Shown: piece by piece, positions 3,690-10,834 of the stretch | Layout: every line of letters starts with the position of its first letter | How positions within the stretch are numbered: the stretch's first letter is position 1 | NCBI GenBank assembly: GCA_021790495.1 | Contig: JAJYGZ010000165.1 | Span: 1 to 11,066, forward strand | Reading direction: 5' to 3' | Source of the DNA: Actinomycetes bacterium | GTDB taxonomy: Bacteria > Actinomycetota > Acidimicrobiia > Acidimicrobiales > Acidimicrobiaceae | Length of the DNA: 11,066 bases | Program-made: the position numbers and the translations under genes | The notes under the pieces: model-generated | What the model saw: the letters and a program-made list of their open reading frames with translations, nothing else | Told to the model about the DNA's origin: nothing | Databases searched by the model: none

Positions 3690-4781
3690 TTAGCCGTTCG
3701 GATTCTCTGGCGTTCTGTTGACGATGGTCGGGAAATTTACCACTACGTTTTTCCAGCGGCGAGTTCCAGACCACGGAGCCGGAACAGCGTCGATCTCGTA
3801 AGCCAATCGATACGCGAGTTCCTCGTAGTTAACCCGCCAGCCAGCAAAGTGCCTATAGGCCTCTTCTCCTTCGCGTTCGATCGAGAACCCCGAATCTCGC
3901 AGCGATTCTACCACTTCATTGAACTCAAGCAATGAGATCGAGATTGGGTCGCTCGGCAGCGGGTCGGGGTTGAAAGGTATTTTGAGCGAGCCAGCTATTT
4001 GGCGCATTGCCCTGAACCCCATCTGTACGCAAAGGCGTGCTTGCATGGGTGCATCACTGGGAGATAAGGCCAGGTGGAGCGCCGCCGCGTCAAGTACCGC
4101 AAGCAGCGAGATGATCCAAGAGGTGGCTACCGCAGGCGAGCGAAAGCGGAGCAAGCTGGGATAGGAGATATGAGTTTCGGCGACTTCGGCGGCCCACCTC
4201 TCCCACGCCAAATAGATGATCGGCAACTCGTCTCGAACAGTGCCGATACTGGCGCGTCTCAGTACCTCTGGACCCCAGGCGGGCCGTCCCGCACGACCAA
4301 CTAGTAGCGTTACTTCGGTTTCGCGCCGGTTGTAGGCATTGTAGAGAGTCGGGAGATACGCGATCTGGAGCGCGACGACGATCATGCCGGTGAAGCCGGT
4401 AAGAAAGTCGACCGCTGTGGCCCAGGGGCGATCGGTCGAAACGAAACCTAGGGTCACCAATGACGCTCCCGCTTCGCGAATGGCATTGCCGAATGTTTGG
4501 GTGACTGGCCAAAGCAGCAGGGAGGACGCTGCGAGAAAGCTGGTGGCCCAAACTCCCAGAGTTACGAAAAGCACCGCCGCTGGCTGTGACGCCAACACCG
4601 CGTTTTTCTTGTCGTAGCTCTTGGCTGACCGTATCACGAAGTGGTACATCGCAAGTACTATCCGGTCGACGATCCGACTGATTCGCGTGACGGTTCCAGC
4701 TGGAACCACAAGAGAGCGAAGGACGCTGGCGATGGTAATGGCGAACAGCGCCATACCGAGAACCGCACCTGCGTACTTCAA
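3690..4781 (-). CDS. Channel-like multi-pass membrane protein
   Basis: A 363-residue integral membrane protein of unknown function. Hydrophobic segments lie at about 5-23, 68-92, 121-145 and 218-238. Between the second and third is a short amphipathic stretch and SLVTLGFVS (107-115). The third segment continues into AYLPTLYNAYNRRETEV. This layout matches a two-transmembrane ion-channel pore (helix, pore loop, helix), but the K+ filter TVGYG is not present. The remaining cytoplasmic part contains WERWAAEVAETH and a soluble C-terminal domain of about 120 residues. From memory, actinobacteria have uncharacterised proteins of this pattern, some annotated as potassium-channel-like. The TTG start at 4781 is supported by AGGAG five bases upstream; ATG at 4754 is the alternative. 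It heads the MoaD/coiled-coil group. Confidence 0.75.
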   Translation of the reverse strand: MKYAGAVLGMALFAITIASVLRSLVVPAGTVTRISRIVDRIVLAMYHFVIRSAKSYDKKNAVLASQPAAVLFVTLGVWATSFLAASSLLLWPVTQTFGNAIREAGASLVTLGFVSTDRPWATAVDFLTGFTGMIVVALQIAYLPTLYNAYNRRETEVTLLVGRAGRPAWGPEVLRRASIGTVRDELPIIYLAWERWAAEVAETHISYPSLLRFRSPAVATSWIISLLAVLDAAALHLALSPSDAPMQARLCVQMGFRAMRQIAGSLKIPFNPDPLPSDPISISLLEFNEVVESLRDSGFSIEREGEEAYRHFAGWRVNYEELAYRLAYEIDAVPAPWSGTRRWKNVVVNFPTIVNRTPENPNG

Positions 4782-6416: not shown

Positions 6417-6506
6417 GTTCTGAAATTCAGTGCCAAATATTCGTCGGTTGTTTTGGCCCCGCGCCTATTTGCTGGTGAGAATGAAGCCTTGGGCGAACGA
6501 GGCTTT

Positions 6507-6511
6507 GGAGG
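6507..6511 (+). promoter_or_regulatory. Ribosome binding site deciding the thioesterase start
   Basis: GGAGG, five bases before the ATG at 6517. The in-frame upstream starts at 6430 and 6481 lack a comparable site. Confidence 0.8.
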
Positions 6512-6516
6512 TCATA

Positions 6517-7299
6517 ATGGGTGCGGCGTTTTATCGCAGACTTTCAGAGTCAAGATTTCTCTCCCAAAGCGAAACCATTGGACCTTGGTCCAATGATGCC
6601 CAGCATGGAGGCCCTCCCTGTGCGCTTTTGGCGTCCGCCATTGATCGAGCCTCAAGCGCTCCGGATACTTCAATAGCAAAGTTGTCTATCGAATTTCTTC
6701 GACCGGTACCCATGGGTGAGCTACGAGTAGAGGTAAAGCCAATTCGCGCTGGTCACAAAGTTGCCCTCTACGAGGGGATACTTGTCAACGACGACGGCCC
6801 GATCCTCTTGGCTCGTGCCTGGAGAACGCGTCGTTCAAGAGATGTCGTACCCAGCGTGTCGATGTCGGAGACGGGTCATGCAGACCCGACGACGGTCGCG
6901 GTAAATCAGTTGGATTCGTTTCCGTACGTCTCCAATATCGAGTGGAGATTCGAGAGCGGGGAGTTCTATGCGCCAGGACCAGCTTTGGTGCACGCGAGGG
7001 TGAAGATTCCGCTGGTGGAGGCCGAGGAAACCAGTGGTCTTGAGGCATTGCTGATCCTCGCGGATTCCGCAAATGGAATTTCTCAGGAACTTGATATGCG
7101 CGAGTTCATCTTCGTACCAGTGGACTTAATGTGTTCCCTACTTCGGATTCCGGATCCGAGCGGTTTCATAACTTTCGACGCACGGACCAGAATTTCCGAC
7201 GAGGCATCAGGGCTGAGCGAAATGAAGATATCCCAAACAGGGAGATTCATCGGAAGCTCTCTGCACACTCTCTATCTCGAGCCGATCAGAAAAAGTTAG
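6517..7299 (+). CDS. TesB/4HBT_3-type acyl-CoA thioesterase family protein
   Basis: A 260-residue double-hotdog protein, expected to hydrolyse acyl-CoA thioesters in the cytoplasm; chain length and true substrate are unknown. Visible family features are the N-terminal Met-Gly-Ala-Ala-Phe-Tyr-Arg-Arg-Leu, GPW (22-24) and AQHGGPPCALLA (28-39), which leads into the first hotdog helix. IEFLRPVPMGEL follows, and the second hotdog begins near residue 125. The ATG at 6517 has an excellent GGAGG five bases upstream and gives the N-terminus typical of actinobacterial members. Longer in-frame starts at 6430 and 6481 are rejected. No partner gene adjoins it. It is followed seven bases after its stop by the proposed 5' edge of the intron-like block. 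Confidence 0.83.
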   Translation: MGAAFYRRLSESRFLSQSETIGPWSNDAQHGGPPCALLASAIDRASSAPDTSIAKLSIEFLRPVPMGELRVEVKPIRAGHKVALYEGILVNDDGPILLARAWRTRRSRDVVPSVSMSETGHADPTTVAVNQLDSFPYVSNIEWRFESGEFYAPGPALVHARVKIPLVEAEETSGLEALLILADSANGISQELDMREFIFVPVDLMCSLLRIPDPSGFITFDARTRISDEASGLSEMKISQTGRFIGSSLHTLYLEPIRKS

Positions 7300-7306
7300 C
7301 GCCGAC

Positions 7307-7735
7307 GTGTGCCATGAGCGCAATCAGCGACTGTGGGCTAATGGGTTGTGATTGCAGCGCCGCGTCAGGGATGGAGGCGCGTTCCCCGCAGCCACCTTGC
7401 AGGAGGAGGCTGCGAACCGCCGCAAGGGGAGTCGGCTGAAGGCCGGTGCTGTGGGCTGAGAATGCTAACCATAAACCATCTCTTGGAGCCGCTGGCCGCA
7501 CAGTGCGATATGAAAGATGACGGGAGGAGCTTTAACTGCCTGGCCCTCCGGCGTCAAGGAGCGTCGATGGCACGCTACCCCGACCACGACACTTGCATCC
7601 AGATAGCGCCGTCCAACGGAGTACGGTCCAATAGCCCACCCGGTGTGGTCAGGGAGGATTGCGTGTTAATCCAAGGGACCCCTGTGTCTCAGCTAGCCTG
7701 GGTCTCATCGCGCATGTCGCGGGTTATATAACCGG
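7307..7735 (+). ncRNA. Stem-rich region upstream of zwf, possible group II intron domains I-III
   Basis: No convincing gene. Stems visible by eye are CGCAGCC/GGCTGCG (7387-7393 with 7408-7414), CGGC/GCCG (7433-7436 with 7442-7445), GACCAC/GTGGTC (7582-7587 with 7645-7650, three more pairs after a mismatch) and GGGACCC/GGGTCTC with one G-U (7675-7681 with 7700-7706). Two 6-mers complement the bases just before the proposed 5' edge, as exon-binding sequences would: GTCGGC (7431-7436) against GCCGAC (7301-7306), and GCTAAC (7464-7469) against GTTAGC (7295-7300). Their order is the reverse of the usual EBS2-then-EBS1 order, and GTCGGC overlaps a local hairpin, so at most one may be real. An ordinary long zwf leader is the alternative. 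Confidence 0.35.
7722..7733. repeat. 12-bp perfect palindrome at the zwf ribosome binding site
   Basis: GGTTATATAACC is perfectly self-complementary, AT-rich at its centre, and abuts the GGAGG of zwf. It could act as an operator, as a hairpin affecting translation, or as the end of intron domain III. TATATAA could also serve as a -10-like element, but that would leave almost no leader. Confidence 0.4.
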
Positions 7736-7738
7736 AGG
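7734..7738 (+). promoter_or_regulatory. Ribosome binding site of zwf
   Basis: GGAGG, eight bases before TTG 7747 and fourteen before ATG 7753. The spacing favours the TTG. Confidence 0.65.
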
Positions 7739-7746
7739 AACGACAC

Positions 7747-9327
7747 TTGGCAATGCCTCGCAAAAGTACGCACCGGACCGATCCTTTCGAAGCTGATACA
7801 CCCCACGGGCGTATTCCTCCACCATGCACTCTTGTCATCTTTGGTGCGTCGGGAGACTTGGCCCGACGAAAACTTATACCTGCGTTGTATGTCCTCTCGC
7901 TTGAAGGCTTGCTGCCCACCCCATTCTTTGTCGTAGGGGCTGGTCGAACTCCCTTGACAACAGATACATTTCGTTCAAGCATGGAAGAAGAGGTCCGAAC
8001 GCACAGCCGGGTTCCATTTGACGCCACAGCATGGAGTATCTTTGCGAAAAGCTTGGAATACGTTCGTGTTGATGTTTCATCTCTAGCAGGTATCGCGCCG
8101 CTTGTTTCTCACCTGCATGAAATTGATACGCTCCGTGGTGGAGCCTCGAATCATCTGTTTTACCTCAGCATCCCACCAAGTGGAATCGCCCCCCTCGCAA
8201 GTCTCCTAGGAGAGTCAGGTTTGAGTCGTCCCGCCTCATCCTCGTTTACACGGCTCATCATCGAAAAGCCCTTCGGCCTAAATTTCAGCACCGCACAGGC
8301 TCTCAACGCCTTGCTGCACCAATCGTTTGAGGAAGAGCAAATATATCGGATCGATCATTACCTTGCGAAAGAGACCGTGCAGAATATGATGGTATTTCGG
8401 TTTGGAAATGAGATTTTTGAACCACTTTGGAATCGCCAACACATCGATCATGTGCAAATCACCGTTGCCGAGCCGATCGGAATTGAAGGCCGTGGCGAAT
8501 ATTACGAAGAATCGGGCGCTCTTCGAGATATGGTGCAAAGCCACGTGATGCAACTCCTAGCCATTGTCGGCATGGAGCCGCCGGCAAATTTCCGAGCAGA
8601 AACGATTCGCGACGAAAAAGTGAAACTCCTGCGCGCCGTACGTCATATTCACCCTGATGACGCGTTGTCGTATACCGTTCGCGGGCAGTACGCTTCGGGA
8701 AGCATCAATGGCGAACATGTTGTCGCATACCGCGACGAACCAGGCGTTCCAGAAGGAACGCTTCGTGAAACATTTGTCGCATTGAAGGTTGATATTGATA
8801 ATTGGCGTTGGGCAGGGACCCCTTTTTATATTCGTTCCGGCAAGCGATTAGCCAAGCGTGTCTCAGAAATCGCAATTCAATTTCGGAGCGTTCCCCATTC
8901 GCCATTTGTCGGGAATGTGCCGACTCCTTCAGCAACGTTGTCCGAGGATGTCATCGCACCTAATGTGCTGGTTCTGCGGATTCAACCGGACGAAGGAATC
9001 TCGCTCGCATTTAGTGCCAAAGTACCTGGGCAATCGATGGAAATTCGCGAAGTAATTATGGATTTTCATTACGGAAGTAGTTTCCTCACGCAATCCCCCG
9101 AAGCCTACGAACGGTTGCTTTTAGATTGCATGCTGGGAGATGCCACGCTGTTTGCCCGCGAAGACGAGGTTGAAGAAGCCTGGCGTTTTTGTACCGCATT
9201 GCTTGACGGCTGGAGAGCCCATCCCCCTGATCGGGCTAATTGTCCCAACTACCCAGCGGGTTCTTGGGGACCAACGGAAGCAGATCAGCTTCTTGAACGT
9301 GATGGTCGTAAATGGAGAGAAATATGA
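7747..9327 (+). CDS. zwf: Glucose-6-phosphate 1-dehydrogenase
   Basis: A complete 526-residue cytoplasmic enzyme oxidising glucose 6-phosphate to 6-phosphogluconolactone with NAD(P)+, the entry to the oxidative pentose phosphate or Entner-Doudoroff route. Motifs are the Rossmann start IFGASGDLARRKL (31-43), EKPFG (173-177), RIDHYLAKE (201-209, substrate His204) and YYEESGALRDMVQSH ending in the catalytic His266. YIRSGKRL follows at 361-368. The signature Gly of RIDHYLGKE is Ala here. The C-terminus NYPAGSWGPTEAD is normal and nothing is truncated. TTG 7747 is chosen for its GGAGG at eight bases; ATG 7753 would remove two residues. GC is visibly lower than in neighbours: 8401-8460 has 23 G/C in 60, against 36 in 60 at 5161-5220 of the MFS gene. 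This suggests separate origin. No opcA, gnd or pgl adjoins it. Confidence 0.97.
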   Translation: MAMPRKSTHRTDPFEADTPHGRIPPPCTLVIFGASGDLARRKLIPALYVLSLEGLLPTPFFVVGAGRTPLTTDTFRSSMEEEVRTHSRVPFDATAWSIFAKSLEYVRVDVSSLAGIAPLVSHLHEIDTLRGGASNHLFYLSIPPSGIAPLASLLGESGLSRPASSSFTRLIIEKPFGLNFSTAQALNALLHQSFEEEQIYRIDHYLAKETVQNMMVFRFGNEIFEPLWNRQHIDHVQITVAEPIGIEGRGEYYEESGALRDMVQSHVMQLLAIVGMEPPANFRAETIRDEKVKLLRAVRHIHPDDALSYTVRGQYASGSINGEHVVAYRDEPGVPEGTLRETFVALKVDIDNWRWAGTPFYIRSGKRLAKRVSEIAIQFRSVPHSPFVGNVPTPSATLSEDVIAPNVLVLRIQPDEGISLAFSAKVPGQSMEIREVIMDFHYGSSFLTQSPEAYERLLLDCMLGDATLFAREDEVEEAWRFCTALLDGWRAHPPDRANCPNYPAGSWGPTEADQLLERDGRKWREI

Positions 9328-9389
9328 ACAGGGCGATGGACGTCCCGGGTCGGGCTCATCATCCGCGCATGTTGGTCAACAGCCTTTAG
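9324..9389 (+). pseudogene. Short coupled frame overlapping the zwf stop, possible truncated operon partner
   Basis: ATG 9324 overlaps the zwf stop as ATGA, with GGAGAG a few bases upstream, the usual signature of a translationally coupled next gene. The frame runs only 21 codons (MNRAMDVPGRAHHPRMLVNS, then Leu and TAG). Base composition rises to the local level just after the start. It may be the first codons of a donor-operon gene cut off when zwf arrived, or a chance overlap. Confidence 0.3.
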
Positions 9390-9774
9390 TTATCTCCAGA
9401 CAAAGTTTCATCTTGCCATCGCCTGTTCAACATGGATCGCGCTTCGCCCCTCTCTTGGTCTTCGTGCCCTCGGTCGGGGGTCGGGCGAGCCCGTTCATGA
9501 CCAAAGCCAACGACGACGCACTGGGTCCGGAGTCGCGACGACAGCGCCATTTTGAGTACGGCCTCGAAAACGGTGGCGGTTTACAACATGAGCTGCTCAG
9601 GTTCGCCCCTGAGGCGGAGAGGAACGAAACCTGCGAAACCTCCGCCAGGTTCTCGCCGGTTGCATCGAACCAGGCGTTGAAGACGCTTCGTCAAACAAGT
9701 CCGCAACTGGCTGATTGACCGCTGGAATAATGCCGATTTTCGACAACTGGCGTGCGGATCTAGCTAGATGTTGG
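9328..9774. other. Unassigned region between zwf and the domain V-like hairpin
   Basis: About 450 nt with no recognisable gene. One plus frame is open from inside zwf to 9718, but its residues match no family I know and it lacks its own start and ribosome site. Structure seen: GGCGGAG (9613-9619) pairs with CTCCGCC (9640-9646); inside that loop CGAAACCT occurs twice (9625-9632, 9634-9641). TGTTG/CAACA arms flank GT at 9370-9381. If the block is an intron this would be the distal part of domain IV. Remnants of a reverse transcriptase C-terminus were looked for and not found. Confidence 0.4.
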
Positions 9775-9808
9775 GAGCCGGATGAGTCGAGGGGTTCGTG
9801 TCCGTCTC
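9775..9808 (+). ncRNA. Group II intron domain V-like hairpin
   Basis: A 34-nt hairpin beginning GAGCCGGATG and ending GTCCGTCTC. It has the length and order of domain V: GAGC with the AGC triad at positions 2-4, lower stem C5-G6-G7-A8 against T27-C28-C29-G30, a two-base bulge at 24-25, upper stem 10-14 against 19-23, and a four-base loop. Departures are T at position 31, which leaves C4 unpaired, and loop GAGG instead of GNRA. This is the strongest single sign of a group II intron here, but the departures suggest an inactive copy or a coincidental match. Confidence 0.5.
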
Positions 9809-9844
9809 TGAGCGAGCGGGAGGAGGATTACCTCCGCCTCTCAC
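9809..9844 (+). ncRNA. Domain VI-like hairpin and proposed intron 3' end
   Basis: GCGG-G-AGG (9816-9823) pairs with CCTCCGC (9831-9837), with GA (9814-9815) against TC (9839-9840). This is followed by TCAC, which fits a 3' end in AY. It starts directly after the domain V-like hairpin, as domain VI does. The bulged base on the 3' arm appears to be C9838 rather than the branch-point A. Alternatively it is a terminator-like stem between zwf and the convergent pirin gene, although it lacks a T tract. Confidence 0.4.
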
Positions 9845-10794
9845 CTGTAACTGGCTGGGATGACGCCCATTTTGCCCTTCTGAAAGTCTTCGAAGGCCTG
9901 CTCGATTTCGCGCCTGGTGTTCATAACGAACGGACCTGCCCATGCGACGGGCTCGCCGATGGGCACCCCGCCAAGGAGCAGGACTTCAAGGCGTTCTTGG
10001 GCGTGGGTAACGCCGTTTTCAAGGTATAGGTAGTCGCCGTCGTTGAGAACCGCTAGACGGCCCGTGCTTATGGCTGCTCGCTCGGCGCCGACGTAGCCTT
10101 GCCCTGAAAGCACGTAAGCCAGCGCATTGAAGTTGCGCGGCCAGTTGATGCTCGCTTGCGCGCCGGGTTCGATACTCAGATGAAGGAAGTTGATCGGCGT
10201 TGTCGTAGAGCCTGGACCCTTATGGCCATCAAGCTCTCCGGCGATAACGCGTATCAGAGCACCTCCGTCCGGCGTGGAGAGCAACGCCACGTCATTTGGT
10301 TCGAGATTCTGATAGGCCGGAGTTGCCCACTTCTTGGCGCTCGGCAGATTCACCCAGAGCTGAACACCGTGGAACAGCCCCCCACTAACGACGAGTTCTT
10401 CGGGCGGTGCCTCAATGTGGAGAATGCCGGCTCCTGCGGTCATCCACTGGGTAGCGCCATCTTGGATCACCCCGCCGCCACCCGTATAAGAGTGATGGAC
10501 GAAGATGCCGTCGATCAAATAGGTAACCGTTTCAAACCCTCGATGGGGATGCCAAGGCGTTCCCTTGGGCTCCCCTGGCGCGTATTCGACCTCGCCCATT
10601 TGGTCCATGTGCACAAAGGGATCAAGTTCGGACATCTCCACCCCTTGGAAAGCCCGCCGCACTGGGAAACCCTCGCCCTCGAAACCCTTGGGCGCGGTGG
10701 TTAGGGAGCGAACTTTGCGTGCTTGGGCAACGGCCTGGTCGACTTTGTGAGTACGGGGGAGGATTAAGAGATCTTCAACTGATACGGCTGGCAT
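9841..10794 (-). CDS. Pirin family protein (bicupin)
   Basis: A 317-residue cupin protein of the pirin/YhhW family. Some members are quercetin 2,3-dioxygenases; others bind enzymes or transcription factors. The role of this one is unknown. The N-terminal cupin carries all four expected metal ligands: His82 and His84 in WHPHRGFETVTY, and His126 and Glu128 in GAGILHIEAP. The pirin motif QWMTAGAGILH and the second cupin (about 180-285) are intact. ATG 10794 is preferred, since GGAGG lies six bases upstream; a start at 10824 would add ten residues through the operator-like dyad. The C-terminus ends Ile-Pro-Ala-Ser-Tyr-Arg. Its TGA (9841-9843) falls in the proposed last bases of the intron-like block, so the native end may have been altered slightly. 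Confidence 0.93.
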   Translation of the reverse strand: MPAVSVEDLLILPRTHKVDQAVAQARKVRSLTTAPKGFEGEGFPVRRAFQGVEMSELDPFVHMDQMGEVEYAPGEPKGTPWHPHRGFETVTYLIDGIFVHHSYTGGGGVIQDGATQWMTAGAGILHIEAPPEELVVSGGLFHGVQLWVNLPSAKKWATPAYQNLEPNDVALLSTPDGGALIRVIAGELDGHKGPGSTTTPINFLHLSIEPGAQASINWPRNFNALAYVLSGQGYVGAERAAISTGRLAVLNDGDYLYLENGVTHAQERLEVLLLGGVPIGEPVAWAGPFVMNTRREIEQAFEDFQKGKMGVIPASYR

Positions 10795-10800
10795 GTTTAT

Positions 10801-10805
10801 CCTCC
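10801..10805 (-). promoter_or_regulatory. Ribosome binding site of the pirin gene
   Basis: GGAGG on the minus strand, six bases before ATG 10794; this decides the start. Confidence 0.8.
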
Positions 10806-10810
10806 GGGAG

Positions 10811-10834
10811 ATATAGTTGCACACGCAACGATAT
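10811..10834. promoter_or_regulatory. 24-bp dyad in the pirin leader, candidate repressor operator
   Basis: ATAT-A-GTTGC, spacer ACAC, GCAAC-G-ATAT: nine of ten arm positions are symmetric. It lies 17 nt upstream of the pirin start codon, just before the ribosome binding site. The size and the TTGC/GCAA core suit MarR- or HxlR-type dimers, which often control pirin genes. An RNA hairpin in the leader is the alternative. The remaining 10835-11066 holds no gene I can support; promoters are expected there but none is clear. Confidence 0.5.

Follow-up and report, generated by a model that had tools for sequence, protein, structure and literature searches.

The window, as we call the whole stretch of DNA analyzed here, is contig JAJYGZ010000165.1 (C15 in our numbering, 11,066 nt) of an Acidimicrobiaceae bacterium, assembly GCA_021790495.1. 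This assembly is an incomplete metagenome-assembled genome (MAG) of 1.93 Mb in 390 contigs, with 65% completeness. Between an acyl-CoA thioesterase gene on the plus strand and a pirin gene on the minus strand lie the ends of a group II intron with a zwf gene between them. A first-pass annotation, made from the letters of the window, had proposed that zwf is housed in this intron in place of its reverse transcriptase (RT). On sequence comparison zwf is indeed flanked by the 5′ and 3′ ends of a single former group II intron, which is now a relic. The intron domains are designated D1 to D6 and open reading frames ORFs, and the features are as follows:

7307..7448, plus strand: group II intron 5′ end and 5′ half of D1 (nhmmer profiles; RF01999 match under the cut-off)
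7449..7746, plus strand: decayed intron sequence from the 3′ part of D1 to D3, or imported DNA (no collinear profile match; no Pfam family in two translated ORFs; no RT remnant)
7734..7739, plus strand: GGAGGA, a probable ribosome-binding site 7 nt upstream of the TTG (read by eye from the sequence)
7747..9327, plus strand: zwf, glucose-6-phosphate dehydrogenase, intact, 526 aa, TTG start with ATG at 7753 possible (TIGR00871; PF00479 and PF02781; tree)
9328..9649, plus strand: decayed RT or imported DNA (no Pfam family in the ORFs scanned; outside the RT match)
9650..9752, plus strand: RT remnant, frameshifted, covering about 34 codons from the C-terminal half (frameshift-aware profile alignment; nhmmer)
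9773..9844, plus strand: group II intron D5 and D6 with the 3′ end, AC (covariance model R1; plasmid blastn; D5 damage)
6430..7299, plus strand: acyl-CoA thioesterase gene, upstream neighbor (ORF; PF13622 and PF20789)
9841..10824, minus strand: pirin gene, downstream neighbor (ORF; PF02678 and PF05726; C-termini of relatives)

The sets used for comparison were 396 genomes from the phylum, 346 from the order (the host not counted), 11 congeners, and 72,556 plasmid records. The 5′ end is given by a DNA profile of eight relatives, which matched 7307-7448 (nhmmer, E 4.5e-7) with its first base exactly at GTGTG, while a 21-sequence profile matched 7306-7448 (E 5.5e-11, the window alone being searched). 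The GTGTG edge read in the first-pass annotation is a true group II 5′ end at 7307. The structured 5′ part proposed there for 7307-7735 stands for about 142 nt of recognizable intron, and the remainder of it is unrecognizable. Rfam family RF01999 (group-II-D1D4-2) matched 7373-7486 with 31.9 bits (E 0.002), not reaching its curated cut-off of 36, and this is the sole RF01999 match in the host genome. Besides the host, 24 genomes of the phylum sample contain RF01999. The stretches around 20 RF01999 places included Rfam D1 plus D5-D6 in eight cases, six of them with an RT ORF containing YADD. In the relatives a GTGYG-like start lies about 65-90 nt upstream of the D1 block, and their D5-D6 align with those of the window. 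A blastn search with 7300-7745 had no match among the plasmid records. In the phylum genomes it found the host genome and two others, and these two were rejected as chance because they lie among unrelated ORFs where there is no RNA family.

The 3′ end was recognized by a covariance model, R1, made from the D5-D6 of eight relatives with the window excluded. It matched 9773-9845 with 46.9 bits (E 4.4e-8), and the second-best match in the window had 10.1 bits. The intron ends with AC at 9843-9844, that is, with an end of the AY type, and in this the hairpins resembling domains V and VI and the AY end that had been read by hand are borne out. RNA folding did not back the hairpin reading, as 9720-9860 folded no better than its shuffles (88 of 200 folded equally well). 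Rfam alone was weak here (RF04356, 20.4 bits, E 1; RF00029, 18.6 bits, E 0.35, in a search of 581 bases). In blastn of 9310-9860 against the plasmid records we detected 16 matches, all within 9746-9855 of the window and the best with E 5e-7. Eight of these records were inspected, and all eight have a group II D5-D6 at the match, one of them under the Rfam cut-off. Phage sequences gave no match. R1 also found D5-D6 in 44 of the 346 other genomes of the order, where related introns are common. The 5′ end at 7307 and the D5-D6 lie on the same strand on either side of zwf; both the covariance match and the 5′ profile match are significant, and in none of the relatives examined does zwf occupy this place without intron flanks.

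The gene between these ends is a full-length member of the TIGR00871 equivalog family (613.3 bits against a curated cut-off of 400.6). Its closest relatives show 71% identity, and its cluster at 90% identity has a single member, on one contig of 11,066 nt, the length of the window. In a tree of 64 rows the window zwf stands beside L025/P0002 in a clade of 28 rows with 100/100 support, composed of Candidatus Dormiibacterota, Chloroflexota, and unlabelled rows. The 19 closest zwf genes of its own order form a separate clade, also with 100/100 support; these 19 were taken into the tree, and the zwf genes of congeners and of the host genome itself, with 42-44% identity, were left out. The host genome has a second zwf of native type on contig C163, with 43% identity to that of the window. 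The GC content at third codon positions of the window zwf is 0.471 against 0.56-0.68 in six window genes, which agrees, together with the tree placement outside the closest zwf of the order, with the earlier remark that its lower GC fits an imported gene. The natural reading of these comparisons is that zwf was acquired by lateral transfer. At the L025 locus the related zwf lies inside what reads as a pentose-phosphate operon (genes named by eye). No D5-D6 match was found around any of 18 loci that carry the closest named relatives of zwf, and near three related zwf loci Rfam at E 0.1 gave no RNA family. A promoter scan found three sites against 1.3 expected, all of them within zwf, and one terminator-like site against 2.7 expected.

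The roughly 450 nt after zwf had been described as unexplained. These 445 nt are now partly accounted for by an RT remnant at 9650-9752. With frameshifts allowed, alignment to a profile built from 14 RTs scored 79.1 half-bits at 9650-9752, a value reached by none of 200 shuffles (mean 35.6, maximum 49.4). On the reverse strand and on both strands of 7449-7746 the same profile scored no better than on shuffled sequence, the score being reached by 129, 112, and 177 of 200 shuffles. At the DNA level a profile gave two matches, 9633-9752 with E 2.5e-4 and 9737-9844 with E 6e-11, and between them roughly 190 positions of the model are absent. We gave the frameshift-aware result the highest weight because both frames are collinear with RT and the match lies just before D5, where the RT of the relatives ends. 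The ORFs of 7449-7746 and 9328-9649 showed no Pfam family at E 1 (seven ORFs) and three PHROGs matches, all of them with E 0.27 or higher (five ORFs). The stretch 9328-9772 was also considered as a decayed second copy of zwf; this was rejected for lack of a match to the zwf protein profile (43 of 200 shuffles reached the score) and stays a weak alternative. When 9325-9772 was compared with 60 relatives by blastn, one short match turned up elsewhere; it lies in ORFs that we could connect with no intron and was taken as chance.

How far has the ribozyme decayed? We compared its D5 with 20 chosen relatives, leaving out L208, L209, L212, and L246-L258 unless listed, as 5′-truncated or already divergent. 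Among the 20, three depart from a clean RT intron: a long ORF is lacking in L135, a transposase interrupts L141, and L211 is annotated with several short ORFs. The window departs at three of the 20 columns that are invariant in the 20 relatives. The D5 loop is GAGG instead of the GAGA of all 20, a C-G pair present in 20/20 is C-T, and the adjacent G-T pair (19/20) is G-C. Locus L208, outside this count, likewise deviates at the tetraloop and at the position of the broken pair. Past 7448, a search of 7449-7746 found no collinear profile match to the rest of D1, to D2, or to D3, and the region of the exon-binding sites falls in the unrecognizable part of D1. The intron is a relic, because D5 invariants are broken, the rest of D1-D3 is unrecognizable, and the RT is reduced to a frameshifted scrap. 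The first-pass annotation had asked for a full-length copy with an intact RT in the same genome, and a search for RVT_1 there had no match; since this negative comes from a genome 65% complete, it speaks only in part against a supply of RT in trans. The element spans 2.54 kb, compared with about 1.96 kb for the intron of its relative L138.

Several related loci have other arrangements. In L135 (G457:C157) D1 and D5-D6 lie close together with no ORF longer than 150 aa in the locus, and this intron is probably ORF-less. The intron L141 (G257:C1:1256300-1260200) has D1 and D5-D6 with an RT region followed by an ORF of a DDE transposase (PF13701), the usual kind of nested insertion. On plasmids of Rhizobium acidisoli (L209) and Methylobacterium nodulans (L212) we detected D5-D6 with RT-like 3′ sequence and no RF01999 match upstream, beside unrelated genes; these are 3′ intron fragments. 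The congener G002 has nine D5-D6 matches in one genome, some of 88-92 bits, which suggests recent intron activity. A second decayed group II D5 is present in the host genome itself (locus L249, contig C57, 3400-7000, with the D5 at 3926-3978 on the minus strand, 36.6 bits), with RT C-terminal sequence before it.

The insertion site was traced in the congeners. Among the 11, a relative of the thioesterase is present in nine and of pirin in all 11 (three of them weak: G006, G010, and G011), and in five (G001, G002, G003, G007, and G008) both neighbors are found on one contig. The gap between the two matches is 40 nt in G007, 44 in G001, 46 in G008, and 111 in G002. In G003 it is 2.6 kb and holds two other ORFs, glycosyltransferase-like and acetyltransferase-like (named by eye). 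None of the five gaps has a zwf match, and the D5-D6 model found nothing in these five loci or in six further congener loci. By this comparison of gene order, the intron and zwf together form an insertion that separates two genes adjoining in congeners. Its start lies 7 nt after the thioesterase stop codon. At the other side the intron is antisense to pirin and lies in its last codons, and the pirin stop codon is the complement of 9841-9843, coming from the 3′ end of the intron. Two pirin relatives, P0121 (99%) and P0122 (95%), stop at the same residue as that of the window, P0123 (88%) is two residues longer, and P0124-P0127 differ. No clear flanking duplication was found among repeats around the block.

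These observations are best accommodated, with a probability that we put at about 0.8, if DNA with zwf, acquired laterally, landed in a previously integrated intron with an RT and deleted part of this intron. An RT-bearing group II intron inserted between the thioesterase gene and the convergent pirin gene, antisense in the last codons of pirin, as the empty congener sites and the homology of the ends to intron ends show. It then lost its function through decay of its ribozyme domains and RT, which is seen in the broken D5 invariants, the missing D1-D3 sequence, and the frameshifted RT scrap. Subsequently, zwf DNA from a donor similar to Dormiibacterota, suggested by the tree placement and base composition, would have landed inside the relic and replaced the middle of D1 through most of the RT gene, either by illegitimate recombination or through a mobile element since lost. 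At present zwf would be an ordinary open gene, possibly co-transcribed with the thioesterase gene, and the host would have gained a second, distant glucose-6-phosphate dehydrogenase. The relic in this course of events would be a tolerated landing site that does not move zwf about. The earlier proposal holds insofar as true intron ends flank an intact zwf; the RT was not simply exchanged for it, a scrap being left at 9650-9752. If so, intron relics between genes can offer a neutral landing site to metabolic genes acquired by lateral transfer.

A number of points weigh against this reading. The arrangement is known from the DNA letters of one contig of one incomplete genome, and the order of events is one that we infer. 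Less sensitive searches for an RT remnant, six-frame and pairwise, were not significant by themselves (tblastn, best E 0.25; single-frame hmmsearch, E 0.044 and 0.072; in pairwise comparison of RT DNA, a single one of 14 outscored every one of 100 shuffles), and a 75-nt profile of the sequence preceding D5 had no match just before D5. A 52-nt part of the RT-remnant stretch resembles zwf DNA (score 24.9, reached by 1 of 200 shuffles). The stretches 7449-7746 and 9328-9649 have no assigned origin.

A mobile intron carrying zwf in domain IV, inserted as one unit with RT supplied in trans by another copy, would explain directly why an intact gene is enclosed by both ends in the same orientation; the related introns of G002, with nine matches, make such a supply conceivable, and ORF-less relatives exist (L135). 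We nevertheless consider it very improbable, because the ribozyme is damaged in D5 and elsewhere, an RT scrap adjoins zwf, the 18 loci of the closest named zwf relatives have no D5-D6 match, and RVT_1 had no match in the 65%-complete host genome. No intron-zwf unit was found elsewhere in the sets at hand, that is, in the 18 zwf loci and the 90% cluster with its one member. A working zwf-carrying mobile intron is unlikely. The broader proposition is equally improbable: that group II introns take up a metabolic gene in domain IV instead of RT and spread it by RT in trans, this locus being the decayed rest of one such carrier, by which zwf passed from a Dormiibacterota-like donor to an acidimicrobial host. 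If true, it would add a new vehicle for gene transfer. We see no sign of the new kind of cargo that had been suggested, the D5 and core being decayed with RT scrap present and none of the 18 zwf loci having D5-D6. The suggested route of gene transfer is also unsupported, because the core is decayed, a piece of RT is left, 0/18 zwf loci have D5-D6, and the host genome, 65% complete, has no RT family match; the intron looks like a landing site rather than a vehicle.

Recombination between two intron copies might also have left a 5′ and a 3′ piece with zwf trapped between them. Group II fragments are common, as L209 and L212 beside other genes illustrate, and the host genome holds another decayed D5 on C57. 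However, the exact 5′ and the exact 3′ ends are kept here and jointly fill one site that is empty in congeners, which makes this origin improbable, if slightly less so than a mobile carrier. Least credible is an error of assembly in which zwf was joined into the contig with the intron as shared sequence. The single member of the 90% zwf cluster on one contig and the 390 contigs of an incomplete MAG would agree with it, but two wrong joins would be required, and the decayed intron ends have no second copy in the genome close enough to serve as a repeat. Landing of zwf in a pre-existing relic remains the reading that we prefer, and the locus is then a clear example of how intron ends that enclose a gene foreign to them can imitate a cargo-carrying intron. 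Surveys for cargo introns need tests of ribozyme integrity and of RT remnants.

It is useful to set the locus beside known systems. With RF01999 (D1D4-2) introns that have RT/maturase, such as L138 (G442) and L245 of the congener G002, it has in common the GTGYG 5′ end, the 5′ half of D1, D5-D6, the AC end, and, as a remnant, the RT C-terminal sequence before D5. It differs from them in having zwf in the middle of the element, only a scrap of RT, an unrecognizable rest of D1-D3, and a damaged D5. PMC8919778 notes a transposase-divided intron and calls about 30% of 1,949 representative intron-encoded proteins (IEPs) incomplete. According to it, the Methanosarcina mazei S-6 intron, like L141, holds foreign DNA in an intron with a broken RT; unlike in such transposase-split introns, the gene here is a metabolic enzyme and no match to a transposase family is left. 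PMC4424553 names LAGLIDADG genes as the cargo, other than the RT, that certain group II introns carry. These, too, are protein genes other than the RT within an intron, but they encode a mobility endonuclease by which the intron presumably moves, whereas the window has a housekeeping enzyme in a decayed intron. The slow decay of introns into fragments is treated in PMC5894124, where FRE652 of RmInt1 likewise represents decay after IEP loss with lasting fragments; it is reported there as a D1-D4 fragment, whereas the window keeps both intron ends around an acquired gene. In the open-licence literature, covered by titles and the beginnings of abstracts and with most subscription papers outside it, we found no report of a metabolic gene within a bacterial group II intron.

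Among the neighboring genes, the best named relative of the window pirin is that of Acidithrix sp. C25 (Acidimicrobiales, Actinomycetota), with 68%. At 10480-10496 the window pirin has HSYTG where P0121-P0124 have HDSTG, a local substitution or an assembly error.

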